A stretch of DNA of 59,677 nucleotides from a virus. The notes under the pieces are model-generated. The model was not told where the DNA came from, did no database searches, and saw only the letters and a list, made by a program, of their open reading frames with translations. Made by a program: the position numbers and the translations under genes. Where the stretch lies: the IMG/VR virus record IMGVR_UViG_3300003322_000768, positions 1-59,677 of that record, one strand, 5' to 3'. Positions 41,173 through 56,279 of this stretch are shown piece by piece (the stretch's first letter is position 1; the number at the start of each line of letters is the position of its first letter).

Positions 41173-42219
41173 ATGAGCGCATTCTCTGTTTCATCTCGTC
41201 GGACTGGCCTCCGCGGAGGCGTTGTGAACGGTTGGGGCACACAATCGGGGATCCACCCGATGTACACCATTGGCGCGAAGCGGGACCAGCACGGCAACTT
41301 GATGCGGACGAGCACCACGCCCGAGGGGAAGATGAGTGCCGATCACGACTGGAGCGGATTCGACGCGGCTTTCGCTGGGACTCATCACGCTCCGGTCACC
41401 GTGCCAGGGAAGACAGTCGACAACTCGGCTGGGGTGAAAAGTGTCGCCAATGCCGCGCGCAGCGCCTACGCGATTCCCGGAATGGCCGCGGCCGGCGCCG
41501 TCATGTCCGCTGCTGCTCCCGCGGCGAAACAGGTCATCCCTCCGGCCAATGTCCAGCCGCCGGCCACACGGCGCACGCTCGATGGTCGCACCGAATATCT
41601 GGATCCGCAGACCGGGCGCTACGTCCAGTCGACCGGGCCGGATAAGTCTTCGGCGCCGCCGCAGGTCAACAACGGGGTGCAGCCGCAGCAGACCAAGCAG
41701 GTCTCCGTGAAGCCGATTCCCGCGCCAATCACGGGCCCGGGCGGCAACGCGGCCACGGACGCGGCCAATCTCGCCCAATCCCAATCCATGTATAAACCGG
41801 GCGGTCTGACCGAGAGCGCCTACCAACGGCAAAACCGGATTGCCAATCCGGCCCCGAATCCCGCGGCGCTCGCAGCTGCCGGAACTGGCGTTAACGTTGC
41901 CACGCGCCCGGGCGATGTGGCGAAGTCGTCCTATGCTACGAGCGCCCCAGTTGTGTCCAAGTCTCCGACCCCAGGACCGGCGGCGGGTGCTCCTGCCGCT
42001 ACGAAGGGTATTCCCGGCATCCCGTGGACCCAGTCGGCCAACGGCATGCCGCCAGCAAATGAAATGTCGACCCCGGCCGCGCCCGCGCAGCCGGTTAAAC
42101 CGACCAGTGCGCCTACTGCGGTAGCGAGCGCGCCGGCCATCAGCCCAGCTCCGCAAGACGAGATCAAGCGCCAGAAAGCGCGCACTGCATACTCGCTCAG
42201 TCGCGGAGGTGCGCTGTAA
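41173..42219 (+). CDS. Pro/Ala/Gln-rich low-complexity protein paired with the polyvalent gene
   Basis: 348 aa from ATG 41173, with AGAGG upstream; in-frame ATG 41128 is an alternative. The N-terminus (SRRTGLRGGVVNGWGTQSGI) is followed by a region with AYAIPGMAAAGAVMSAAAPA, then long disordered Pro/Ala/Gly/Thr segments. The end is a charged helix (DEIKRQKARTAYSLSRGG). The stop overlaps the ATG of the 4,686-aa gene (TAATG), so the two are co-translated. It may be an internal virion or ejection protein delivered with its giant partner; that is inference. Confidence 0.55.
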   Translation: MSAFSVSSRRTGLRGGVVNGWGTQSGIHPMYTIGAKRDQHGNLMRTSTTPEGKMSADHDWSGFDAAFAGTHHAPVTVPGKTVDNSAGVKSVANAARSAYAIPGMAAAGAVMSAAAPAAKQVIPPANVQPPATRRTLDGRTEYLDPQTGRYVQSTGPDKSSAPPQVNNGVQPQQTKQVSVKPIPAPITGPGGNAATDAANLAQSQSMYKPGGLTESAYQRQNRIANPAPNPAALAAAGTGVNVATRPGDVAKSSYATSAPVVSKSPTPGPAAGAPAATKGIPGIPWTQSANGMPPANEMSTPAAPAQPVKPTSAPTAVASAPAISPAPQDEIKRQKARTAYSLSRGGAL

Positions 42220-45200
42220 TGGCAGACGAAATCCAAGAGGATCCGCTGACGATCGAGCAGCATCCCACGCCTACCGGCCAGATCATCGAGCAGAGCCAGC
42301 TTTCGCAGGCGCCAAACGAAGCACCGGCACCGGAGGCCGCACCGCAGGAAGTCAGCGCCTACGCCCGTGGCGAGGCCGCGCCGGCGCCAAGCAATCCCGT
42401 TCAGGAAATCCTGAGCAACCCGAGCGCCTACACACCACAGCGAATCGAAGAGCCGACGCTCACCCATCACAAGGCCGTAGACCCGTTCATCGAGTCGCGC
42501 ATTCTCGCTCGAGACCAGAAAGAGGCCCAGCGCGAGCAGAAGATTCTCCAGAAACAGGAGGATACCAGGGCCAAGGGTGCGCAGGCAGTGTTGAAGGATG
42601 CCGGGGTAGAGATGGAGATCGACCCGGCGACGGGCGCGCCACGTCCGAGGACCGACGAACAGGGCCGCGTGCTCTACAAACCGGCAGTCATCAATCCGTT
42701 CGAGCAGGACGAAAACGGCAATGTGTTCAGCCGGAAGCGCGATCGCTTCGGCAACGAGCAACTTGTACCGCTCCATCCGAAGACTGACCCAGAGACGGGC
42801 GAAAAATGGGTGACAGGAGAGGACGGAGTCTCGCGCGTCTCACTCGGCCCGGACGAAGATTTCCTCGCTAAGAAGAACTACCAGATCGCCGGCCAGGAAT
42901 TGACGGCCGCGCGCACCGATCTATCCGAGCAACAGAAGCGGCAAAAGCAGCTTCAGAAGCAGATCCAGCAGACGACCGTGCAAGCTGGGATGCTGAGCTC
43001 GAACAAGGACCTGACCGACGACCAGCGCGTTCAGTTGAAGCGTCTGCAGGACCAGAATGCCAAGGCCAGCGCTGAGCTCGCGCAGATCACCGAGGGATTG
43101 CCTGACCTTCAGAAGCGGCATGACGAGGCGCAGAAGACGCTCGACAGCGCCCGTGGAGTGATGATCAACCGGGCAAAGGCGAAGTATCAGCCGCTCACCG
43201 AGCAGGCGAAACAGACTTCGCCCGATCCTGTCGCAGATCAGATCGATGACGCGGTAAAAGCCAAGTTCACCCCACCTCCGACACCCGGCGCGACCGAGCA
43301 GGAGACGAAGACCGGACTTTTCAACTTCGCCGCACGCGTCCATCTGCAAACCGTGCACGGTATCGAGAAGGCGCTGGAGGGAGTGGCCCGTCTGGCCAAT
43401 GCCGACGTTTACGACGAGCACGGCTACAAGACCGGGACTGTCCTGCCGTTCATGCAGAAGGCCGCTGACTTCCTCAAGGAGCGCACCCAGAAGCAGGCCG
43501 ATGCGCTGAAGGGCGAATCCAAGGATCTCGGGTACAAGCTGGGCGAGCAGGGCAAGGTCGCATCGGTCGCTACGAACATCGTAGGCGGAATCGGCGCGAT
43601 GTCGCCAGGCATCGTTACCGGAGGCGTGGCCGGCCTGCTTACTCTTGGCGGTCAGGCCATGGCAGAAGGAAGCGCCAACGCTTACGACGAGGCCAAGGCG
43701 AAAGGGTTGTCGGACGACAAGGCGACGGCTGCGGCGTATAGCGCGGCACTGAAGACCGTCCCGTCGACCGCTCTTTTCGCGCTCACCGGAGCGGCCACGT
43801 CGAAGACGCTCACGAAGATTCTGCCGCTCGAGGCATCGCCGATCACCAGGGCCGCCGCGGCGCTCGTGGTTGGGTCTGGGGCGAACATGGCTGCCACTGC
43901 CGGCGGCAAGGCGATCATTGGTGAAAGCCCGAAGCTCACTGCGGAAGACGTCGTCAACTCCATCGTATTCGCCGCACACGGCTCGATGACCGAGGCCGAC
44001 CGGGCCCGGGACTTGTCGACCGCGCGCTCTATCATCGACGGCACGAATCCAGACGTTGCGTTGATGGACGGCATTGCAGAGGGCCGCGTGCCCGATGCGC
44101 CTCCGGCCATGCAGCAGCGCGCCAAGGAGATGGCCGAGGCAATCCGAAATGTGGCCAAGACCTTCGTCGAGAAGTCGGGCTATAAGGCGCCTGAATCGAA
44201 AATCTCGCCCGAGGCAAACCCGGACCAGCCGAAGCAGACCACCGGTCGCGTCGTGTCGACCACTCCGGCAGAGAATGCAGACCTTTCCGACGAAGAGCTT
44301 GCCAATCTGGCAGGCGAACAACCCGCACAATCCAATGAACAACTCGCCTTACCAGGACCAGAAGCAGAGCGCGTACACTCCGAAGAGGAAGCGAAAGGGC
44401 AAGGGGATGCCGGTACCAATGGACCCGGCGAGAACGAAGTTCCCAGCCAGCCCAGCGAGCAAGCAGCCGTAGAGAAGGGGGACAGCCCTGAGGTAAAACA
44501 GGGCAAGCTCGCGACGCGCGCGGCCAGGAAATATGGCATCACCTACCAAGGCGTGTCGGATGGGCTGCACGCGTTCAAGGATCCGGAGACCGGCGGCAAC
44601 TTCAGCCTGAAGGCCGACGAGATCACTCCAGAGGGAATCTCGCAAGCGCTGAACAAACTACGCGAGAGTTTTGCAGCCAACAAGGCAGGCGAGGTAGGCT
44701 CAAATTCTGATGCAGAAGTAGCGAAAGCGATAGAGGAACAGAAGGCCGCGGAAGCAGCGGCCCCGAAAGAGGCTGTTGACGAGGATCATATTGCCCCAGC
44801 AACGGAGATGGCGCAGGCAGAGGGAAAACTGACCCTGCCCATGGTTCAACGTAGGTTTCGCCTGAATCCTCGTAAAGCCACTGCGCTGATTGAGGAATTA
44901 AAGAGCCGAGGGGTGCTGGACGAGAAAGGAGAGGTGCAGCGCACTCCGAGCACATCGGGCCAGGAAAAGAGTGTTCGCACCATAGAGACAACTCCGGAGG
45001 AAAAACCGGAAAAACCGGCACCGACCCCAGAAGGCAAAGCTGCCGAGCAACCGACTCAAGGCAGCGAAAATCCCGCAGTTGGAGATCGAGTAACAATTCC
45101 GTCCCTGTCTGGTGATGGCTCATTTGAGGCTGAAGTTACTGGGGTTACGAACGGTGTAGTCAGCTATCGTACCGACGACGGTCGGACTGGGACTCGGCAG

Positions 45201-48200
45201 ATTTCCTCGATTCAACCAAAGGAATCGACTCGGACCAAATCCGAAGAAGCCGCTCCTGCTGCTCCGTCGGCTGAGGAATCAAAAAAAGGCTCTTCGCCGT
45301 CTGCTGATGTTCAAGAACAGCCTGCGCAAGAATCTCGGAAGAGTCCATCTGCCGCTGATAGCGAAAAACGCACCTCGACGCAACTGAACATCGAAGGCGG
45401 GGCGAAAGAGGCAGTCTTGAAACTGGGCCAGACCATCGCGCCTGAAGACCTTTACCACGGCGAAGAGGGCAGCGATTCGTACGGCCCGGAATACGGTTTG
45501 GAAACCGAGCCGCACATCACCGCGCTCTACGGTCTCGAGACCCAAGAACCTGCGGACGTGCGGAAGTTGCTCGAAAATTTCGGACCGGTCACCGCCAAAC
45601 TCGGCAAGGTCAGTCTCTTCGAGAACGAAAACCGCCCGTATGACGTGGTGAAGATCGACGTGGAGGGACCGGACATTCACCGGCTAAATGCCGAGTTGAA
45701 GAAGCTTCCATACAAGAGCGATTTCCCGGACTACCATCCGCACGTCACTCTCGCCTACGTCAAAAAGGGCACGGGTAAGAAGTATGTCGGGGCCAAGTCG
45801 GTCCTCACCGGAAAAACGATCACCTTCGACACGCTGAAATTCAGTGATGCCGAGCGCAATAAGACCGATTTACCGCTGGGCGAGAAGCCGGCCAGCGAGA
45901 CCAAGACCCAAGAGGCAACACGCCGTGTGCGCGAGGCGATGATCAAGGGCAGGGTCAATCAGTTCCTGCGGAGCCTCAAGGTCCAAGTCGAACCGACGGA
46001 CTCGCCGCGCTCCTTCCGTGCCAACTGGAAGGCCACTGGCCGCGGCAATCCTGCCTACTCGTTCCAGATCAACTACGCGCGGATTGGCGAGAAGATCGCC
46101 GGGATGAGCGACGCCCAGGCGCGCGAGTGGATCGAGTCCGCCATTGGCGAGGAAGTCGACCACTTCGCCCAATTCGAGGCCGTGCGCCGGGACTGGGAGA
46201 AGCGCAACCGCAAGGATCAGCACGACAAGCCCCAATCCTTCGGTGAAGCGCTCGAGGCGGAATACTCGGCAGTCGAGCAGGCAATGACCGACGAGCAGCG
46301 CCAGGCCGCGAAGGATGCCTACGAGGGCGACTCGGGTGTCGAGTTGCAGGGATCCGAACTTGGCGCCGAGTTCGTCCGCCAGATGCTCCAGCACGGGGCA
46401 GGGCAGAAGATCACCGAGGCCGCGATCCGCGCAAAGCCGATCATCGAGCGCATTCTCGGCGTGCTGAAAGACCTGCTTTCCAAGCTGGCCGATGCCCCCG
46501 CGGCCCTACGCAACTCGTACGAGCGCGCCAAGGCGGTGCTCGAAGAGCTTTCTCAGTCGTCTCCAGAAAAACAACCCAAGCCCGCGGACCGACCGGAGAG
46601 CACTGGAGAGCCTCCGGCCGGCCCGCGGCGCGTTCGCTTGGGTAACTCGCCCCAGAGTTATGAGGTGATCGAGGAATTGCCGCGCCAGAAGGGCGACCTT
46701 CCTGAAGAAAAGTATTTCCGCGTCCGAAACGAGAAAACTGGCGCCGTCCAGACCGTTGAACAGCGCGACATGAAGCCCATTGGGGCGCAACCGACAACCG
46801 AAAATGCCAGCAGTATCGAAAGCGCAAAACCGTTGGGTGAACAGCCCAGCGGGACACCGAGCACTGGGGGACCAGGGAGTGAAGGAGTGGAACGCGGAGA
46901 CCAAGGGCAAGAAACTCCCGGAAAGAGCCCCGAGCGCCTACAGCCTGAAAAGGCACCGAAAGTAAGCGGCGCATCCGAAGAGACGAAGCAGAAGGCCCGC
47001 GATGCCTTCAAGGGGCTCTTCGCGCCTGAACCGCCCAGCGATTCGGACTACCACGATCTCGAGCACACGACGAAAATGTCGGTCCTCAACGGGCTGGCCA
47101 GGAAATACGGCGTTTCTCAGGAAACGATCGATAAGGGCTGGAACGAGTACGGTCAATACTGGCTGCGCGAGCGCATCCGGGAGAAGATGGACGCCAACAA
47201 GGCTATCACCGCCGAGCCGACCAAGCCGGCGGCGCCGCAGGAATACGCGACGCTGGCCGATGCGATGCTCCAGGCGCAAATCGAGGACAAGGTGACGCCC
47301 GCTGTCCCTACGACCATCCGGGTGGAGAACAGGATGCGCGCCGAGGCAGACAAGCTCGAGGCGAAGACAGGATTCCCTGATGTTCCCATTGCCGATGTCC
47401 TCGAAAACTCCGGGTTCTCGATCGACCCGAAGTCGATGGCCAAGGCCAAGGGCGCGCTGGTAGCTCTTCATGCCCAAGGCAAAATTCAGTTTGGTGGCTA
47501 TGATTGGAGCCTTTCCTCCGACCGCGAAAAGGCGTGGGCAATTCGTTTACGTAAGGGCAGGGAAATCTATCTCACCGTCAAATTCGAGAAGGGGCTTTCG
47601 TCCGCTGAGCCGACTACAGAACCGCTCGAGCAAAAGCCGCTCCCGAAGGATCGGCGAGCCGCATTATTCGATCTGGCCGACAGCCTCGAAAAAGACGGCA
47701 TAGACACTCCGGAGAAGGTGGCAACTTTCCTCGACGAGATCAGTCCACAACTCCGTCCATACGCCCAATCCCTCTGGGACACGATGGGCGCCGCCGGCAG
47801 TGTTCCGCGTGGAACACACGACTGGCCGACCATTTTCGCCTCGCTTGACGAACCTGTAAAACAGCCCGAACCTATCACCGATGAAAACAGCGGCCCTATT
47901 TCCGAACGCGACGGGAGTACTGAACGTCAAGACGCTGAAGACGCTGGAGGACAACTTCAGCCGTCCGACGCTGGCGATCGTGGACGGATGGGCAGCGAGC
48001 AACCCGAAGAAACTCCGGGAACTGGAGAAGAGCGGGCATCTGTTCCAGCTGGTGAGGGACGAGGAGAAGAAGGAAACACTGGCCCAACAGAGGGCGGTGG
48101 AGACGCACGGGAGCTTGCCGCCTCTCGCTCCGTGGGAGATCGGGCGGATGTACGGCGGCGCAAGTCGCCAGCTCGCGTAGAGTCGAACTACGTCATCACC

Positions 48201-51200
48201 CCATCCGACGACATCGGCGGTGGTGGGATGGCGCAGAAGTTCGCGGACAACATCTCGGCCATTTCTCTGCTCAAAGAGATCGAGTCGGAAAATCGACCGG
48301 CCACCGACGAAGAAAAAGCCCAGCTGGTGAAATATGTCGGCTGGGGCGGGATGAAGAACGCATTCAACCCTGAAAATGCCGACTGGAAGAAGAAGGCCGA
48401 GGCGCTGAAGTCGATCCTCACTCCCGAGGAATACGAGACTGCCAGGCGGACGATCCAAGATGCGCACTACACCAGCCCGGATGTCATCAACGGCATCTAC
48501 AAGGCGCTCGCTCGTTTCGGTTTCAATGGCGGGAAGATGGTCGAGGGCGGCTCTGGCGTCGGGCATTTCATCGGCCTCCTGCCGGCTGGGATGCGCGATC
48601 GCACATCCTACCTCGGAGTCGAGCAGGACTCGGTAACCGCCCGAATCTCGAAGCTGCTCTATCCAAAGGCCCAGATCATAGAAGGCGGATTTCAGAACGC
48701 GAACCTTGAAAGGGACCACTTCGACGCGTCCGCCGGCAACCCGCCGTTTGGCCAGAAACAGCTCTTTGACCCGAACTTCAAGGACGCCAGCAACTTCTCA
48801 ATTCACAATTACTTTATCGCGAAGCAGATCGAACTCCTGCGCCCAAGCGGGGTAGGCGCATGGGTCGTTTCTCACTACTTCCTCGACGCCCAGAACCCGG
48901 CCGCGCGAAACTGGATTGCTGACCGGGCGAACTTCCTTGGCGCCATCCGCCTGCCCAACACGGCGTTCAAGAAGAACGCCAACACGGATGTGACGACCGA
49001 TATCGTCTTCTTCCAGAAGCTCATGCCGGGAGAGAAACCCTCTTCTCTGGACTGGACCGAAGTGGAAAAGATGCAGATTGGCGACACCCGCGGGGCGATC
49101 AGCCGCTACTTCGTCGATCACCCGGAAATGATGCTCGGCACTCCGACCATGGAGGGCACGATGTATCCAGGTCGCGAGGAATTCACGCTAAGCCCGAAAA
49201 CCGAGACACCGCTGGCCGACCAGATCAGCCAGGCAGTGGAGAAACTGCCGGAGGGAGTTTACGACAAGATCACCAATCAGGAGACCGACCGCCTCACCGC
49301 CCCAGAGGAAGGCGTGCTCGTCCCCGAAAATGTGAAGGTCGGAAGTTACTTCATCGACGAGAAAGGCCAGATCCACCGCCGCACTGCCGACCTGAACGAG
49401 CAGCGGCAATCGACGCCGGTCGAGTTCCAGAACGAGACCCAGCCGAAACGTGTCTCTGGCATGATCGGGATCCGCGACGCACTGAACGAGCTTATCCGCG
49501 CGGAGATCAGCGACGCGCCGGCAGGAGCAATGACTAAGCTACGGAAGAAGCTGGGAGCGGCCTACGATCAGTTCGTCGAGAAATTCGGACCGCTCAACAC
49601 TTTGACCAACCGCCGCGCCTTCAACGCCGACACCGACGCATTTAAGGTGTTGGCACTCGAGCGAGATTTCGATCCGGGTATCGGGCGGGAGGCCGCGAAG
49701 AAACGCGGCATCGAACCGCGCAAGCCGAGCGCGAAGAAAGCAGCGATCTTCGAGAAGAGGGTCAACGCCGGCTACAAGGAAGTGACGAAGGTCAGCGGCG
49801 CAAAAGATGCCCTGACCGTCAGCTTGAACCAACGGGGCACGGTCGACCTGCCCTACATGCAGAAACTCAGCGGCATGTCACGCGAGGCCATCCTGAAGGA
49901 ACTGGGCGACCAAGTCTTCCAAGATCCGCAAGGCGACTGGCAGCAGGCCGAGAAGTATCTTAGCGGAAATGTGCGGGAGAAGCTGCGCGCCGCAGAAGCA
50001 GCGGCGAAGAAAAACCCGGAATTCGAGCGCAACGTCGAGGCTCTGAAAAATGTCATCCCGGCGGACATCGCGCCACAGGACATCCGCGCCCCTCTTGGAT
50101 CGCCGTGGATCAAGCCCGAGTATTTCGCCCAGTTTGCCAAACAGCTTGTTGGCGAGACGCCGGAAATCATCGCCTACGCGCCCGCCGTGGCCCGATGGAA
50201 CGTCCGCATGCCAGACATGAGCGTTGCGGCGCACAGCGAGTACGGCGTCGAGTCGAGCCAGAAACACCGCGGCATCTCATTCGGCGGCATTTTGGACGCT
50301 TTGATGAACAACAAGCCCGTGCAGGTCATGGGCTACGGCTCGAAGGATGTCCCTCCCAAAGTGGACCAGGAAGGCACGGCCGCGGCCCAACAGAAGGCCG
50401 ATTTGATCAAGCAGAAATGGGCGGATTGGGTGATGCAGGATCCTGCCCGCCGAGAAGACCTGACCCGTGTCTACAACGACACGATGAACGTCTTTGCCGA
50501 CACCAAGCCGAACGGGCTGCACCTCACGCTCCCAGGGAAGACACCGCTCATCGAGCTCTACCCGCATCAGCTGAATGCCGCGTGGCGCATCATCACCGAC
50601 CGCACGGCCCTGCTCGATCAGGTCGTCGGCGCCGGCAAGACCTTCATCATGGCTACAGCTCTGATGGAGATGAAGCGGCTGGGGTTTGCCCGGAAACAGC
50701 TGCTGGTTGTTCCGAACCATCTCACCACCCAGTGGCGCGATGCGATCGTGACGCTCTATCCCAATGCGAACGTGCTGTATGCCACGCCCAAGGACTTCGA
50801 GAAGAAGAACCGGCAGCAGCTCTTCGCGCGCATGGTCACTGGTGAGTATGACGCGATCATTATCGGTCATTCGTCCCTGAAAAAGATCGGGATGCCGAAG
50901 CAGGCAGAGCAACAGCTTCTTCGCGAGATGCTCAACGAGATTGCCGGCGCCGTCGAAGACATGCGCCGCGCCGAGCGCTCGGAGGCCGGCCGTGGCACGG
51001 ATAGCCGATTCATCACCTCGCTCGAGAAGATGAAGGACTCGGTGCAGGCCAAGCTGGACCGGGCGATGGATAACACCGGGGAAAAGGACACCGCGGCCAC
51101 ATTCGATGAGCTTGGAATTGATGGCCTCTACCTCGACGAGGCCCACGAATTCAAAAACCTATTCTACACCACTGGTATGCAGCGGGTGGCTGGGCTGGGT

Positions 51201-54200
51201 GATCCGAAGGGCAGCGCAAAAGCCTTCGATCTCTTCGTAAAAACCCGCTGGATGCAGCAGCGCTACGGAGGTAAGGCGCCGCTAGTGTTCGCCACGGGCA
51301 CGCCGATCAGTAACTCGCTCGTTGAGATGTTCACCATGCAGCGATACCTGCAGGGCGACAAGCTCAAGGCCATGGGGCTGAACACACTAGACTCTTGGGC
51401 CAAGGTGTTCGGAGACGTGAAGAGCGTCTACGAGGTTGACCCATCCGGCACCGGTTACCGGATGGCCACCAGGTTCGCCAATTTCCAGAACGTGGGCGAG
51501 CTTGGGGCGATGTATCGCAGCGTCGCGGATGTGGTGACGCTGGATGACCTGAAGCGCCAGACCGCCGAGCGCGGCAAGATATTCCCTGTTCCGAAGGTGA
51601 AGGGCGGAAAGCCGAATAACTACGTGGTCGATCGATCGGATGCCCAAGCGCTCTATTTCGGCATTGAAACACCGGTTTTGGACGAAAAAGGCAATGAACG
51701 GTTGGACGCGGACGGCAATCCGATGGTGACCTACACCAAGGGTAGTATCCTCGATCGCATCCAGAACCTTGACCCGGCCAGGCCCGACATCGACAACATG
51801 CTCGTCATCACCAATGACGCGCGAAAGTCTTCTCTCGACATGCGGCTGGTCGACCCGAACGCCGCGGATTTCCCGGGATCCAAGCCTAACACGGCTGTGG
51901 CTGAGATCGTGCGAGTTTACCAGAAGTGGAACGAGAAGAAGGGCACCCAGCTCGTTTTCTGCGACTTGAGCGTCCCGGCCAGCGCCCGCGGCAAGGCGAC
52001 CGAGAAGGCCAAGGAGCAGGCGAACAAGCCGGAAAAGCCCGAGACGACCGACGATTCGGAGGAATTCGCCGAGGAAGAGAAAGAGCAGGCCATCAGCATG
52101 GATGAGATACTTGCCGATTCGTCTGATCACTCGGTTTACGACGACATGAAGGCCAAGCTGATCGCCGCTGGCATTCCAGAGGATGAGATCGCCTTTATCC
52201 ACGACTACGACAACCCGGATAAGAAGCAGAAGCTCTTCGACGCGATGAACGAGGGCAAGGTGCGCATCCTGTTTGGATCCACGCCGAAGCTTGGAGCCGG
52301 CACGAACGTCCAGCGTCGGCTGGTCGCGCTGCATCACCTCGACGCACCTTGGCGCCCGTCCGACTTGGAGCAGCGCGAGGGCCGTATTATCCGCCAAGGA
52401 AACCTGTTCTTTGAGGAATCGATCAAGGGCTACAAGACCAGGGAAGAATACGAGGCCGACCCGGAAGCCTTCGAGGTGGAGATCCACCGCTACGCCACGC
52501 GCCAGACCTACGACACGCGCATGTGGCAGCTGATCGAGCACAAAGCGGCCGGCATCGGCCAATTCCGGCAGGCCGACCGAACCACTCGCGACTTGGAAGA
52601 CGTGAGCGGCGAGGCTGCCAATGCCTCCGAGATGAAGGCCGCGGCCAGCGGCGACCCACTCATTCAGCAGGAGATCGAACTCCGCAGTAAGGTGAAGAAG
52701 CTCGACCTTCTTCGCCGTGCGTGGGAGTCCGCGAAGTACCAACATGAAAGCGAGGTCCGACGGTTGGAGAAGATTCCCGCCGAGTATGACCAGCAGATTC
52801 AAAGCTGGGAGCAGTGGAAAGAGTATGCCGCGGCCAACCCGAAGCCGGAGGACTTCAGCAAGGAGGACCGCGAGAAGCTGATGAACGACTTTGTCGAAGC
52901 ATCGAAGCGGGCCACCAATGGAGCAGAGACGTTCGCCACCTATCGCGGGGTCAAGCTGTCGGTTGCTCGCAACAAATTCACAGCCCGAATCTACGGCAAG
53001 GCCGGGAAACTCGACCGACAGCTGACCGAGTTCTACGAGAACGATCAGGTGACGATTACCGGGCTGAAACAGCGCATCGACAACGCGCTGGACGACAAGC
53101 CGGCGGAAGAGATTGAACGCTTGGAGGCAGGGAAGAAGCGGTCAGCCTCGCGCCTGCCCATCGAACGAGAACTTGCGGCCAAGCCGTTCGAGAGCCAGGC
53201 CGAACTCGACAGCGCTCGCTCTGAACACTCGGCCACCTTGGCGCAACTGCGCACGAATCGCCGCAAAAAGGAATCCGATCAGATTCCAGTCGTGGCGCCA
53301 GACGAACCCACTTCTTCCGGCGGACTTGAATCTCCGGAACCGCGCGGGGCAACGCCGAACCCGACTCCAGAACAGGAGGCCAAGGGGCGCGCCATGCGCG
53401 AGGCGTTCAATAAGCTCTCGGACATAGAGAAAAAGGTGCTGACCATGCGCCGCCGCGGTTCGACGAATGACCAGATCAAAGAGGCGACCGGATTTTCCGA
53501 TTTCCAGATCGAGAAAGCCTACCGCTCGGCCATGGCGAAACTGCAGGCGGCAGCCGCGGCGGCGCCGAAGCCCGTCGATCCGCCGCCGGCACGTCCTATT
53601 CCGCAGCCCAGTGCCACCCAGCAGAGGCTGGGTATTCCCGTCCCCACGCTGAACCAGGTCAGGAAGACATTCACGCCGGGGTTGGGCATAGCCAATGACA
53701 TCAAGAAGGGCATCCAATCCCTTCTCCTGCCTACGGCGGTCAGCCCCGAGCACCTCGCCGCGGCCGAACTCGTAGGCAGGCGACTGGGAGAGATGCACCG
53801 CAGAGCCGAGGTGGACATGCACGCCAACCGGGATGACCGGAAGTTATTCGAGCGCCTTGGAGTTGCCAATGAGCGGCTCCCGTTGGAGCAAAACCCGGGC
53901 GTGAAGTTCATGTCCGACATGTCCCAGGGCCGCGATGTGACCGGAGCGGGCTCTGTTGCTGACCGGATGAAAATCAAGGCTCTGGCCGAGCGCATCCGGG
54001 AACAGCAGCAGCAGCGCCTTGACTTGCTCGAGGAAGCTGGCGCCGAGCTGGAAGATGCCAGGGAACACTACTTCAAAGGCATGTGGACCTACGATTCCCG
54101 CAATGCCTTCGGTATCGCCATGGGCGAGGCTTTCCGTGATGGCCGGCTGGGCGATAACTTCGACGTCAACACCGCGAGCGCCGAACAGAAGAAGATGATT

Positions 54201-56279
54201 GCCGACCGGGTAAGGGATATCCTGCGCAACGGCCAGCCGCCGGACGCGAAGGACATGCTCCAGTATCTGACCCGCCGGCCATTGAAGGGAAAAGAGAGTT
54301 TCCGCCGCCGGAAGGTGTTTGATGACATCATGACGGGCGTGGAGTTTGGTCTCCAGCCGGTATCGAATAACCCGGTAGTTATTCACACGGTAGCCTTGGC
54401 GGAAATCGACCGCTCGATCATGGCCAACCAGGTCTTCCGCGACTTGGAGAAAAAGGGCGACCTGATCAATGTCAACAACGAGGGCGTGCCGATGAAGGAA
54501 GCGGCCAGGAAGAACTTCGACCGCTCCGAATGGACGAAGATCGACGACAAGTACGGTACGATCTGGAACAGGGACGAGAATACGGGTGCGCTGATCAAAC
54601 GAGGTGAGCGCTGGGCGAAGAAACCGGTTGCAGCCATCCTCAACAACTATCTCTCGAGCTCGCTCTACAATAATCCCTACTTCGGCAAGCTCTACACGGC
54701 ATGGATGGGCATGGCCAACCTGCTCAACCAGTCGCAGCTTGGCGTAGGGTCGGCATTCCACGCGGGCTTCACCGCCATGGAAAGCCAGATCTCGGCCGGC
54801 GCCAACATCCTGAACGATATCTACGGTGTGGCCAATGGCACACGGAGCGTCTCCAACCTCATCGAGACGGCAAAACGGTTCCCCGTGGCCATCGTTGAAA
54901 ACCCGATGACCGGCGACAAGGTCCTGAACGCTTGGCGCAACCCGGAGGGAACCATAGACCCGCGTATCGCCCAAGTGGCCCGGGCGTGGGAACTGTCTGG
55001 GGGAGGGTTCACCATGGAGAAAGGGCTCCAGACGAACCAACTCGATAAGCTCTACTCCGATTGGTATTCGGACCACCGCGTGCGCGCCGCGCTTCGCTCG
55101 CCGTTCGCCCTCATCGAACTGATGGCCAAGCCGATCATGGAATACCTCGTTCCGCGCCAGAAAGCGGGCGTCTTCGCTCACTTGGCGTGGAGGGTGATCG
55201 AGCAGAATCCGGGCAAGCCATTGGAATCGCTCACGCACGAATTCCGCGAGATCGCCATGCGCGTGGATGCCCGTCTCGGCCAGGTCCGCTATGACCGGCT
55301 GTTCATCAACAACACGGCGAAAAACGTGATTCAAGCGCTCGTCCGCGCCCCAGGCTGGACCGGCGGCACGATCGCGGAGATCGGCGGGGCGTTCAAGGAT
55401 ACGGCCGGTTTCTTCAAGGAATGGTCTAAGACCGGGCGAGCGCCGAAAGACTTGCCGAAGCGCCTGACCTACACACTCTCGCTCCTGCTCGGAGTGGCCA
55501 CGCTGAATGCGCTCCTGACCTACCTGTTCACCGGGGAAGGCCCGAGCGGTCTTGCCGATATTTTCTCCTTCCGAACCGGAGGAAAGGACGAGAACGGCAA
55601 CCCAGACCGCTACACCCTGCCGACCTACATGAAAGACGTGTGGGCCTACATGCAGCACCCGGGCGAGACCATTCTGCACAAGTCGCACCCGCTGCTGAAC
55701 TACTTCAGCGAGTTGTTCAAGAACAAGGATTACTACGGCGTGCAGGTGCGCGACGAGGACGCCAGTATCGTGGCCCAAGCCGGCCAGGTCGGAGCGCACG
55801 CGGTGAAAACCTTCGTGCCGTTCTGGATCCGCGGCTACCAAAAGGCGGACGAGCGCGGCGAGAGTCTGCCGGCCAAGGTTGCGCCATTGGTAGGCGTCAT
55901 GCCGGCTCCGAAGGACATGAACCAGTCGCCGGCATATCGTCTGGCCGCGGAGATCGTGCGCTCGCGCATGCCATCTGCGCCGATCACCGAGCAGCAGCAG
56001 GCCGCGCGCATCGATCGCTCGCAGGCGGTTGCGGGACTGCGCCGCGGCGACTACGGCCCGATGACCAAGGCGATCGAGAAAGGAACGATCAAGCCGTCGG
56101 ACGTGAACAAGATCACTGAAAAGGCATCACTCCCGCCGCTGGCCGCTATCGTGAAGAGCCTGCCACTTGATCAGGCCGAACGCGTTTGGAAGAAGGCCAG
56201 CGACGAGGAAAAACGCGAAATCGCTCCAGTGATGGAAAAGAAGCGGGAGAACGCGATGAAGAAGCAGATGGCGAATTAA
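42219..56279 (+). CDS. Giant polyvalent protein (DarB-like methylase-helicase, 2H phosphoesterase and other domains)
   Basis: 4,686 aa, 24 percent of the genome, with GGAGG upstream. Domains visible, approximate residues: coiled coil 225-330; hydrophobic Ala/Gly region 440-590; FtsK-gamma-like winged helix 860-905 (MVQRRFRLNPRKATALIEEL); SH3-like 950-1000; 2H phosphoesterase 1075-1220 with HIT (His1099) and HVT (His1175); an EExxH segment near 1311 (GEEVDHFAQFE); an N6-adenine-type methylase 1990-2320 with VEGGSGVGHF and NPPFG (2174-2178); an SNF2-like helicase with GAGKT (2804-2808), DEAH (2973-2976) and EQREGRIIRQGN near 3385; a sigma-region-4-like helix-turn-helix near 3740; and a C-terminal helical polyvalent-associated region with one hydrophobic helix (4415-4440). 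The methylase-helicase pairing follows phage P1 DarB, which protects incoming DNA. This fits the polyvalent proteins described by Iyer, Aravind and colleagues, thought to be injected with DNA. Three small genes are nested out of frame. Confidence 0.85.
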   Translation: MADEIQEDPLTIEQHPTPTGQIIEQSQLSQAPNEAPAPEAAPQEVSAYARGEAAPAPSNPVQEILSNPSAYTPQRIEEPTLTHHKAVDPFIESRILARDQKEAQREQKILQKQEDTRAKGAQAVLKDAGVEMEIDPATGAPRPRTDEQGRVLYKPAVINPFEQDENGNVFSRKRDRFGNEQLVPLHPKTDPETGEKWVTGEDGVSRVSLGPDEDFLAKKNYQIAGQELTAARTDLSEQQKRQKQLQKQIQQTTVQAGMLSSNKDLTDDQRVQLKRLQDQNAKASAELAQITEGLPDLQKRHDEAQKTLDSARGVMINRAKAKYQPLTEQAKQTSPDPVADQIDDAVKAKFTPPPTPGATEQETKTGLFNFAARVHLQTVHGIEKALEGVARLANADVYDEHGYKTGTVLPFMQKAADFLKERTQKQADALKGESKDLGYKLGEQGKVASVATNIVGGIGAMSPGIVTGGVAGLLTLGGQAMAEGSANAYDEAKAKGLSDDKATAAAYSAALKTVPSTALFALTGAATSKTLTKILPLEASPITRAAAALVVGSGANMAATAGGKAIIGESPKLTAEDVVNSIVFAAHGSMTEADRARDLSTARSIIDGTNPDVALMDGIAEGRVPDAPPAMQQRAKEMAEAIRNVAKTFVEKSGYKAPESKISPEANPDQPKQTTGRVVSTTPAENADLSDEELANLAGEQPAQSNEQLALPGPEAERVHSEEEAKGQGDAGTNGPGENEVPSQPSEQAAVEKGDSPEVKQGKLATRAARKYGITYQGVSDGLHAFKDPETGGNFSLKADEITPEGISQALNKLRESFAANKAGEVGSNSDAEVAKAIEEQKAAEAAAPKEAVDEDHIAPATEMAQAEGKLTLPMVQRRFRLNPRKATALIEELKSRGVLDEKGEVQRTPSTSGQEKSVRTIETTPEEKPEKPAPTPEGKAAEQPTQGSENPAVGDRVTIPSLSGDGSFEAEVTGVTNGVVSYRTDDGRTGTRQISSIQPKESTRTKSEEAAPAAPSAEESKKGSSPSADVQEQPAQESRKSPSAADSEKRTSTQLNIEGGAKEAVLKLGQTIAPEDLYHGEEGSDSYGPEYGLETEPHITALYGLETQEPADVRKLLENFGPVTAKLGKVSLFENENRPYDVVKIDVEGPDIHRLNAELKKLPYKSDFPDYHPHVTLAYVKKGTGKKYVGAKSVLTGKTITFDTLKFSDAERNKTDLPLGEKPASETKTQEATRRVREAMIKGRVNQFLRSLKVQVEPTDSPRSFRANWKATGRGNPAYSFQINYARIGEKIAGMSDAQAREWIESAIGEEVDHFAQFEAVRRDWEKRNRKDQHDKPQSFGEALEAEYSAVEQAMTDEQRQAAKDAYEGDSGVELQGSELGAEFVRQMLQHGAGQKITEAAIRAKPIIERILGVLKDLLSKLADAPAALRNSYERAKAVLEELSQSSPEKQPKPADRPESTGEPPAGPRRVRLGNSPQSYEVIEELPRQKGDLPEEKYFRVRNEKTGAVQTVEQRDMKPIGAQPTTENASSIESAKPLGEQPSGTPSTGGPGSEGVERGDQGQETPGKSPERLQPEKAPKVSGASEETKQKARDAFKGLFAPEPPSDSDYHDLEHTTKMSVLNGLARKYGVSQETIDKGWNEYGQYWLRERIREKMDANKAITAEPTKPAAPQEYATLADAMLQAQIEDKVTPAVPTTIRVENRMRAEADKLEAKTGFPDVPIADVLENSGFSIDPKSMAKAKGALVALHAQGKIQFGGYDWSLSSDREKAWAIRLRKGREIYLTVKFEKGLSSAEPTTEPLEQKPLPKDRRAALFDLADSLEKDGIDTPEKVATFLDEISPQLRPYAQSLWDTMGAAGSVPRGTHDWPTIFASLDEPVKQPEPITDENSGPISERDGSTERQDAEDAGGQLQPSDAGDRGRMGSEQPEETPGTGEERASVPAGEGRGEEGNTGPTEGGGDARELAASRSVGDRADVRRRKSPARVESNYVITPSDDIGGGGMAQKFADNISAISLLKEIESENRPATDEEKAQLVKYVGWGGMKNAFNPENADWKKKAEALKSILTPEEYETARRTIQDAHYTSPDVINGIYKALARFGFNGGKMVEGGSGVGHFIGLLPAGMRDRTSYLGVEQDSVTARISKLLYPKAQIIEGGFQNANLERDHFDASAGNPPFGQKQLFDPNFKDASNFSIHNYFIAKQIELLRPSGVGAWVVSHYFLDAQNPAARNWIADRANFLGAIRLPNTAFKKNANTDVTTDIVFFQKLMPGEKPSSLDWTEVEKMQIGDTRGAISRYFVDHPEMMLGTPTMEGTMYPGREEFTLSPKTETPLADQISQAVEKLPEGVYDKITNQETDRLTAPEEGVLVPENVKVGSYFIDEKGQIHRRTADLNEQRQSTPVEFQNETQPKRVSGMIGIRDALNELIRAEISDAPAGAMTKLRKKLGAAYDQFVEKFGPLNTLTNRRAFNADTDAFKVLALERDFDPGIGREAAKKRGIEPRKPSAKKAAIFEKRVNAGYKEVTKVSGAKDALTVSLNQRGTVDLPYMQKLSGMSREAILKELGDQVFQDPQGDWQQAEKYLSGNVREKLRAAEAAAKKNPEFERNVEALKNVIPADIAPQDIRAPLGSPWIKPEYFAQFAKQLVGETPEIIAYAPAVARWNVRMPDMSVAAHSEYGVESSQKHRGISFGGILDALMNNKPVQVMGYGSKDVPPKVDQEGTAAAQQKADLIKQKWADWVMQDPARREDLTRVYNDTMNVFADTKPNGLHLTLPGKTPLIELYPHQLNAAWRIITDRTALLDQVVGAGKTFIMATALMEMKRLGFARKQLLVVPNHLTTQWRDAIVTLYPNANVLYATPKDFEKKNRQQLFARMVTGEYDAIIIGHSSLKKIGMPKQAEQQLLREMLNEIAGAVEDMRRAERSEAGRGTDSRFITSLEKMKDSVQAKLDRAMDNTGEKDTAATFDELGIDGLYLDEAHEFKNLFYTTGMQRVAGLGDPKGSAKAFDLFVKTRWMQQRYGGKAPLVFATGTPISNSLVEMFTMQRYLQGDKLKAMGLNTLDSWAKVFGDVKSVYEVDPSGTGYRMATRFANFQNVGELGAMYRSVADVVTLDDLKRQTAERGKIFPVPKVKGGKPNNYVVDRSDAQALYFGIETPVLDEKGNERLDADGNPMVTYTKGSILDRIQNLDPARPDIDNMLVITNDARKSSLDMRLVDPNAADFPGSKPNTAVAEIVRVYQKWNEKKGTQLVFCDLSVPASARGKATEKAKEQANKPEKPETTDDSEEFAEEEKEQAISMDEILADSSDHSVYDDMKAKLIAAGIPEDEIAFIHDYDNPDKKQKLFDAMNEGKVRILFGSTPKLGAGTNVQRRLVALHHLDAPWRPSDLEQREGRIIRQGNLFFEESIKGYKTREEYEADPEAFEVEIHRYATRQTYDTRMWQLIEHKAAGIGQFRQADRTTRDLEDVSGEAANASEMKAAASGDPLIQQEIELRSKVKKLDLLRRAWESAKYQHESEVRRLEKIPAEYDQQIQSWEQWKEYAAANPKPEDFSKEDREKLMNDFVEASKRATNGAETFATYRGVKLSVARNKFTARIYGKAGKLDRQLTEFYENDQVTITGLKQRIDNALDDKPAEEIERLEAGKKRSASRLPIERELAAKPFESQAELDSARSEHSATLAQLRTNRRKKESDQIPVVAPDEPTSSGGLESPEPRGATPNPTPEQEAKGRAMREAFNKLSDIEKKVLTMRRRGSTNDQIKEATGFSDFQIEKAYRSAMAKLQAAAAAAPKPVDPPPARPIPQPSATQQRLGIPVPTLNQVRKTFTPGLGIANDIKKGIQSLLLPTAVSPEHLAAAELVGRRLGEMHRRAEVDMHANRDDRKLFERLGVANERLPLEQNPGVKFMSDMSQGRDVTGAGSVADRMKIKALAERIREQQQQRLDLLEEAGAELEDAREHYFKGMWTYDSRNAFGIAMGEAFRDGRLGDNFDVNTASAEQKKMIADRVRDILRNGQPPDAKDMLQYLTRRPLKGKESFRRRKVFDDIMTGVEFGLQPVSNNPVVIHTVALAEIDRSIMANQVFRDLEKKGDLINVNNEGVPMKEAARKNFDRSEWTKIDDKYGTIWNRDENTGALIKRGERWAKKPVAAILNNYLSSSLYNNPYFGKLYTAWMGMANLLNQSQLGVGSAFHAGFTAMESQISAGANILNDIYGVANGTRSVSNLIETAKRFPVAIVENPMTGDKVLNAWRNPEGTIDPRIAQVARAWELSGGGFTMEKGLQTNQLDKLYSDWYSDHRVRAALRSPFALIELMAKPIMEYLVPRQKAGVFAHLAWRVIEQNPGKPLESLTHEFREIAMRVDARLGQVRYDRLFINNTAKNVIQALVRAPGWTGGTIAEIGGAFKDTAGFFKEWSKTGRAPKDLPKRLTYTLSLLLGVATLNALLTYLFTGEGPSGLADIFSFRTGGKDENGNPDRYTLPTYMKDVWAYMQHPGETILHKSHPLLNYFSELFKNKDYYGVQVRDEDASIVAQAGQVGAHAVKTFVPFWIRGYQKADERGESLPAKVAPLVGVMPAPKDMNQSPAYRLAAEIVRSRMPSAPITEQQQAARIDRSQAVAGLRRGDYGPMTKAIEKGTIKPSDVNKITEKASLPPLAAIVKSLPLDQAERVWKKASDEEKREIAPVMEKKRENAMKKQMAN
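44335..44472 (+). CDS. Nested small basic protein 1 (out of frame in the polyvalent gene)
   Basis: 45 aa, ATG 44335 to TAG 44470-44472, +1 relative to the enclosing frame. It reads MNNSPYQDQKQSAYTPKRKR then KGKGMPVPMDPARTKF and ends PASPASKQP, a basic Pro/Lys-rich peptide like small phage virion-linked proteins. Hand-counted third-position GC is about 82 percent here versus about 50 percent in the enclosing frame, whose product is a low-complexity linker (EEEAKGQGDAGTNGPGENEV). The stop lies about 12 bp before the next folded segment of the polyvalent protein. No Shine-Dalgarno is visible. Confidence 0.5.
   Translation: MNNSPYQDQKQSAYTPKRKRKGKGMPVPMDPARTKFPASPASKQP
46804..46965 (+). CDS. Nested small protein 2, DUF3008-like (out of frame in the polyvalent gene)
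   Basis: 53 aa, ATG 46804 to TAA 46963-46965, +1 relative to the enclosing frame. It opens MPAVSKAQNRWVNSPAGHRA and contains VKEWNAETKGKKLPERA. This is the MPAxSKAQ ... KGKxLPE(R/K) pattern I know from a small widespread phage and bacterial family (DUF3008-like). Third-position GC is about 70 percent versus about 50 percent for the enclosing frame, which encodes a Gly/Ser/Glu/Pro linker. The family match in an alternative frame is the strongest single sign that these nested frames are real genes or recent ex-genes. Confidence 0.6.
   Translation: MPAVSKAQNRWVNSPAGHRALGDQGVKEWNAETKGKKLPERAPSAYSLKRHRK
47881..48180 (+). CDS. Nested protein 3 (out of frame in the polyvalent gene)
   Basis: 99 aa, ATG 47881 to TAG 48178-48180, +1 relative to the enclosing frame. 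It looks like an ordinary folded protein: LFPNATGVLNVKTLKTLEDN, FSRPTLAIVDGWAASNPKKL, RELEKSGHLFQLVRDEEKKE, then LPPLAPWEIGRMYGG. Nineteen of 99 codons end in A/T (third-position GC about 81 percent), while the enclosing frame has about 48 percent over the same bases and encodes a disordered run (EDAGGQLQPSDAGDRGRMGS). The stop is 2 bp before the codon that begins the methylase-helicase domain (NYVITPSDD). Function unknown. Confidence 0.6.
   Translation: MKTAALFPNATGVLNVKTLKTLEDNFSRPTLAIVDGWAASNPKKLRELEKSGHLFQLVRDEEKKETLAQQRAVETHGSLPPLAPWEIGRMYGGASRQLA

Follow-up and report, generated by a model that had tools for sequence, protein, structure and literature searches.

DarB-like polyvalent proteins, such as DarB of phage P1, combine an LPD36-adenine methylase-SNF2 helicase module with other effector domains (Iyer et al. 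2017, PMC5512222). A term search of that paper found no mention of overlapping genes or of linkers. Two frames that share the same bases are known from overprinting overlaps, in which one of the two products is disordered (PMC8227390). They are also known from the Rz/Rz1 phage spanins, where a small gene can lie fully inside another in a different frame (PEp14 Rz1 in Rz). Here, we describe small genes nested in a DarB-like gene of IMG/VR virus record IMGVR_UViG_3300003322_000768, analysed over its positions 1 to 59,677 (59,677 nucleotides; hereafter the window). A first-pass annotation had placed three small open reading frames (ORFs), here ORF1 to ORF3, within the disordered linkers of this gene. 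Their coordinates proved correct, and each begins with ATG in the +1 frame of the enclosing gene (Table 1). We propose that ORF3 and ORF2 are very probably real coding genes lying wholly inside the DarB-like gene, which would be separately initiated to give free proteins, while the DarB frame reads the same bases as linker. Homologues, constraint on the nested frame in relatives, and predicted independent ribosome-binding sites at the nested starts of those relatives are established at the level of sequence. The Rz/Rz1 spanins are a lysis pair of similar size, whereas here a gene of ~100 amino acids lies inside one of >4,000 amino acids, unrelated to lysis.

ORF3 belongs to a family of small proteins nested in DarB-like genes. 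When ORF3 was used directly as a query, it gave no match in phages or viral contigs, because it is too divergent; the family surfaced through ORF position in relatives. The methylase segment is closest to those of L002 and L003, each of which carries a +1 ORF that ends just 5' of the segment and can be aligned to ORF3. Profiles built without the window recover ORF3 at E 3.6e-10 and 3.2e-11, as the sole good match among 1,124 window ORFs. The profile of family A, the largest subfamily, also places ORF3 first among these, weakly (E 0.02). The same nested position is filled in DarB-like genes of Pseudomonas, Agrobacterium, Vibrio, Erwinia, Klebsiella, Ochrobactrum, Microcystis, and Burkholderia phages. 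ORF3 is thus a member of this DarB-nested family by homology to nested ORFs of other DarB-like genes, by its +1 frame, and by its place upstream of the LPD36-methylase segment. The first-pass annotation had each nested stop adjoin the next folded segment. This is precise for ORF3, which ends at 48180, with the methylase-segment alignment beginning at 48183, and vaguer for ORF1 and ORF2.

Nesting of this family is widespread among DarB-like loci. The family-A profile finds 67 loci in IMG/VR, and all but one of these lie nested within an ORF that is 1,154 amino acids long or longer. In bacterial genome contigs it finds 20 loci: 14 nested, and 6 in other surroundings where the enclosing frame is closed. 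We also took the best-scoring 80 of 476 DarB-like IMG/VR loci that were gathered solely through the methylase segment. In 78 of these 80, a member of subfamily A, B, or C is nested, always in the +1 frame; this count is not wholly independent of the nested gene because the methylase query (alignment A6) included some loci that came from an earlier nested-gene scan. The remaining two loci hold an unclassified nested candidate each. Most of the 78 counterparts end within ~160 bp upstream of the methylase segment, and some 350-600 bp upstream. Profile comparison connects families A and C with a score of 30, whereas column-shuffled controls run on A-C do not exceed 15.9. A family-A protein is predicted to form four helices with a predicted local distance difference test (pLDDT) score >90, and the AlphaFold2 model of ORF3 has a mean pLDDT of ~90 over residues 10-60. 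None of 21 phage records found by tblastn annotates the nested gene separately.

The family also occurs in other arrangements. In Pseudidiomarina (L129:7974-8759), a family-A domain opens a stand-alone protein of 262 amino acids with an apparently membrane-spanning C-terminal end. In Sinorhizobium phage PBC5 (L011, 9602-11482), DarB is annotated as two ORFs, the upstream one reading in frame into the small gene; this split may be a real frameshift or a sequencing error. PHROG 938, labelled endolysin, has the small domain at its C-terminal end.

Judged by its homologues, ORF2 is a real phage gene family that usually stands alone. A tblastn search in phages gave no match; in IMG/VR, ORF2 has 29 homologues, the best at 72-80% identity, and a profile of these relatives built without the window recovers it at E 9.9e-28. 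The family lacks an open enclosing frame in 24 of 25 loci examined, and in one locus (L019) it lies between the terminase small and large subunit genes. It is also +1-nested in two other long, unrelated polyvalent-like genes (1,698 amino acids in L024 and at least 1,557 in L026). Between the window ORF2 and a stand-alone copy (L018), substitutions at the first, second, and third nested codon positions (N1/N2/N3) number 6/7/27.

In relatives, constraint lies on the nested frame. N2 is the third position of the DarB codon (E3) and N3 is the first (E1). Across 14 independent pairs of family A, substitutions at N1/N2/N3 number 63/57/173, and N3 exceeds N2 in 13 pairs. Downstream of the nested gene, the DarB frame shows the normal excess of changes at its own third position. 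Type C has the same order as family A, with 0.17/0.13/0.28 substitutions per codon. Because changes concentrate at the nested third position, the linker reading follows the nested gene and not the reverse. The first-pass annotation held that its proposal would fall if no nested protein had homologues outside this locus and relatives showed constraint solely in the enclosing frame. ORF2 and ORF3 both have homologues elsewhere, and for both it is the nested frame that relatives constrain.

Nested starts in relatives carry their own initiation signals. A Shine-Dalgarno (SD) energy of -5 kcal/mol or lower is found at 94% of family-A nested starts versus 17-19% of controls. This figure is unbiased, whereas that for type C is biased, because type-C start codons were picked partly by their SD motif.

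Several observations weigh against our reading of the window itself. None of the three window nested starts has a good SD motif. The SD motif is likewise missing from most of 25 sampled ORF starts at 198-42219, many of them likely genes, so its absence at the nested starts is uninformative rather than contrary; SD-poor starts point to a host with SD-independent initiation. ORF3 is divergent, with at most ~26% identity to its nearest relatives, and the window has no close relative for a codon-level test of ORF3 within its own lineage. With regard to function, ORF3, like ORF1 and ORF2, receives no name from Pfam, PHROGs, NCBIfam, or PADLOC. Fold comparison for the family gave no informative match: there was none in the PDB, and among viral models the sole match was PBC5's own read-through protein. 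Window ORF3 also gives no match to the family TnpV (PF14198), considered below, at E up to 1.

Composition cannot by itself identify nested genes. The reversal of third-position GC (GC3) that had drawn attention to the three ORFs was borne out by measurement (nested/enclosing, in %: 82.6/50.0 for ORF1, 68.5/50.0 for ORF2, and 81.0/44.0 for ORF3, with 74.4 for the enclosing frame over the whole polyvalent gene). Synonymous codon usage in the nested frames falls at the 44th (ORF1), 18th (ORF2), and 42nd (ORF3) percentile of ordinary genes of the window phage, whereas for the same bases read in the enclosing frame it falls at about the 2nd. Yet the linker at 44994-45369, where enclosing codon usage is also poor, holds no nested ORF. 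In real stretches of the window phage, the +1 frame is open over 100 codons in 11% of cases versus 2% for the other frame. Every one of the 350 GC3-swap candidates in related loci lies in the +1 frame, and several of their clusters are Arg/Leu-rich non-proteins, judged to be translations of repetitive linkers. In a GC-rich genome, any linker with many E, Q, P, A, G, D, and R residues, whose codons have G or C at position 1, shows the same +1 signature. The GC3 swap was accordingly rejected as a detector of nested genes, being too unspecific. ORF length was rejected as coding evidence, because codon-shuffled copies of the polyvalent gene contain +1 ORFs of such lengths no less often. That the three ORFs share one frame, as first remarked, is true and is largely what composition would produce. 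Because composition always favours +1, codon composition alone is weak proof, and homology decides. For ORF1, we found no homologues by tblastn in phages, by a viral-contig scan with the 65-amino-acid version, or among the fetched loci; ORF1 is a candidate gene on codon usage alone.

These compositional results are what would be expected if the nested ORFs were artefacts, in a +1 frame that always looks open and GC3-rich while nothing is translated from it. This explanation may still hold for ORF1, which has no homologues. For ORF2 and ORF3 it is refuted: ORF2 homologues stand alone in unrelated contexts, relatives conserve the nested frame and not the linker frame, SD motifs are conserved at nested starts, and a curated Pfam family, TnpV, is found among the nested proteins. 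As an account of the nested ORFs in general, we consider it very improbable. A programmed frameshift that makes the nested frame the C-terminal end of a truncated DarB, with no free protein, would account for the in-frame upstream DarB half of PBC5 (orf33) and for the C-terminal domain of PHROG 938. However, PBC5 may hold a simple indel, stand-alone copies exist, and the nested ATG is conserved together with its SD motif, often ~5 codons past an upstream stop in the nested frame. We hold the frameshift to be improbable. Nested translation might instead deliver ribosomes to an internal DarB-frame start, yielding a separate P1-like LPD36-methylase-helicase protein, with the peptide itself unimportant. 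The nested stop is indeed near the start of this module in most loci, and P1 DarB begins at about the same point, without a nested ORF. Against this, the interval from -15 to +40 nt around the nested stop is free of DarB-frame ATG and GTG codons in every one of 53 loci, and the nested ORF is conserved in its amino-acid sequence. On the lack of such starts we rejected re-initiation, which we regard as extremely improbable.

Separately initiated nested genes could have arisen by fusion or by insertion. The first-pass annotation proposed that the polyvalent gene grew by fusing neighbouring genes, short genes between them now being read through as linkers. This account holds in part. The enclosing frame over ORF2 and ORF3 is passive and linker-like. 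ORF2 fits a once-separate gene, being mostly stand-alone elsewhere (once between terminase genes) and nested here and in two unrelated polyvalent-like genes; ORF1 gains no homology support. Local fusion around all three ORFs in this lineage does not agree with the nesting of ORF3, which is old: it is common to almost all DarB-like loci (78 of 80) and to Gram-positive SNF2-type genes, and therefore predates the window lineage. The nesting of ORF2 is probably younger. No split relative with the small gene intergenic between DarB halves was found. PBC5 is split near the small gene, but its small gene is in frame with the upstream half; stand-alone family copies elsewhere do not adjoin DarB. P1 was rejected as an unfused version with the small gene upstream, as no nested family member was found in its locus and Ulx was unmatched. 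The data are explained equally well by a small gene inserting into a linker and by fusion through stop loss. Local fusion in this lineage thus seems to us a doubtful explanation.

The main branch of the nested family is related to TnpV. TnpV, of Tn4451-like mobilisable elements, has been described as a free-standing gene located close to serine recombinases and is postulated to act like the excisionase Xis (PMC3158075). Five of nine members of A2 in a Pfam scan of family A have weak TnpV matches, and one family-A locus (L109) scores 31.6 bits, over the Pfam gathering threshold of 27 bits. The family-A and TnpV profiles align with a score of 31.5, against at most 15.9 for the shuffled-column controls run on A-C. 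In a gut phage contig (L017), a true TnpV (E 6.7e-32, 110 bits) is +1-nested in a methylase-helicase gene. Including this one, we found six loci with a TnpV +1-nested in an SNF2/methylase gene, the others being Virgibacillus (L135), Cohnella (L136), Monoglobus (L138), and two gut phage contigs (L140 and L141). TnpV stands alone in other loci, and a serine recombinase lies beside it in L137 and L139. The DarB-nested copies do not lie in a mobilisable element beside a serine recombinase. As ORF3 itself has no direct TnpV match, it is filed as a DarB-nested family member linked to TnpV through family A alone, and not as TnpV. We found no description of TnpV nested inside a methylase-helicase gene. 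Elements that carry TnpV insert into snf2 genes in Streptococcus suis (PMC9815147), and we speculate that such insertions may be a route by which a TnpV gene came to lie inside such a gene. For two Gram-positive plasmids (L136:6001-6339 and L138:5992-6345), the listed annotation has TnpV and omits the enclosing SNF2-type frame of ~2,100-2,200 codons; the plasmid gene table is incomplete, so this listing may differ from the original annotation.

Two further families show that nesting of small genes in polyvalent linkers recurs. Family D ('GLIDPPSPFDTLQKWKxW...LKQARQIIREKS') is conserved and +1-nested at L006:17714-17920 and in ~27 other loci (~28 in all). It occurs mainly in rhizobial phages, 3' of the DarB methylase-helicase part, and usually has an upstream SD-like motif. 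Family E, ending in 'SELTMH/SLTLH', is found at 12 loci in DarB-like genes of Vibrio and Erwinia phages (among them L007:11066-11257, L009:9419-9628, and L111:4322-4480). Its substitutions at N1/N2/N3 are 0.024/0.079/0.066, a less clear pattern that gives weaker evidence of constraint.

By its domain content, the enclosing gene is a DarB-like polyvalent gene, with the LPD36-adenine methylase-SNF2 helicase module and further domains in one polypeptide. Residues 1882-3713 of its protein match phrog_10089 ('DarB-like antirestriction') at 1817.5 bits, and its LPD36-type domain, which starts at about 48183, is of the kind for which a GXGU motif has been described (PMC5512222). P1 DarB begins at about this module, unlike the window gene. 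A weak FtsK-gamma-like segment lies at 44790-44927, and the 2H phosphoesterase domain has a sub-threshold match to the anti-CBASS (cyclic oligonucleotide-based antiphage signalling system) protein Acb1. At 50105-50845, the +2 frame within the polyvalent gene stays open for 246 codons, longer than codon-shuffled copies usually yield; it is probably not coding, because GC3 is low there.

Table 1. Coordinates of the DarB-like gene of the window, its domains, and its nested ORFs.
Feature	Position	Strand	Size or character	Evidence
Enclosing DarB-like polyvalent gene	42219..56279	+	4,686 aa	PHROG match, Pfam domains, translation
Candidate nested ORF1	44275..44472	+	45 aa from ATG 44335 or 65 aa from ATG 44275	Codon usage
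2H phosphoesterase domain	45489-45770	+		Pfam
Nested ORF2, 'SKAQxRWVNSPAGHKALGxxGVKEWNxATKGKKLPE' family	46804..46965	+	53 aa, +1 frame	Homologues
Nested ORF3, conserved small helical protein of the DarB-nested family	47881..48180	+	99 aa, +1 frame	Profile search without the window
LPD36-methylase segment start	48181..48330	+	GxGG motif 'DDIGGGG'; directly 3' of nested ORF3	Alignment A6 of 16 relatives
Eco57I-type adenine methylase domain	48690-48935	+		Pfam
SNF2/ResIII helicase (ResIII, Helicase_C)	50550-52400	+		Pfam

We infer that ribosomes start separately at the nested ATG, in the window phage without an SD motif, as at most of its sampled genes, and that a free small protein would be produced from the late mRNA. 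In the DarB frame, other ribosomes would translate this stretch as a disordered linker. The overlap would be tolerated because a GC-rich gene read one base out of register seldom meets a stop and specifies mainly hydrophilic residues (E, D, G, Q, P, R, and S), and +1 would therefore be the frame able to absorb a small gene. Unlike described overprinting, the frame of the small gene appears, by codon usage and constraint, to be the older and better constrained, and the linker a newcomer that is the DarB-frame reading of that gene. ORF2 would be a small phage gene of ordinary kind that ended up within a linker. ORF3 is a member of a family of small, predicted helical proteins, TnpV-related through its main branch and tied to the methylase-helicase module. 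This close linkage suggests a role as a co-made partner of the module (an assembly, DNA-loading, or regulatory subunit of the antirestriction enzyme), a suggestion we offer only tentatively.

Many phages have a DarB-like gene among their largest genes, and such genes also occur on plasmids and other mobile elements. Term searches of the open literature turned up no account of nested genes within DarB or within polyvalent genes, although one may exist in subscription papers. It is conceivable, at somewhat less than even chances, that the DarB-like methylase-helicase genes of phages of many hosts, of Gram-positive plasmids, and of gut phage contigs each form an obligate two-protein locus, with a conserved TnpV-like predicted partner encoded out of frame, and that their linkers have repeatedly housed small genes (ORF2 and families D and E). 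If so, a conserved second protein would be absent from annotation, from PHROG, and from proteomic work based on called genes, and it would be an obvious candidate for the partner still missing from the poorly understood mechanism of DarB antirestriction. The locus would also clearly exemplify, in prokaryotes, overprinting in its less usual direction, in which the shifted reading of an old small gene supplies a new disordered linker.

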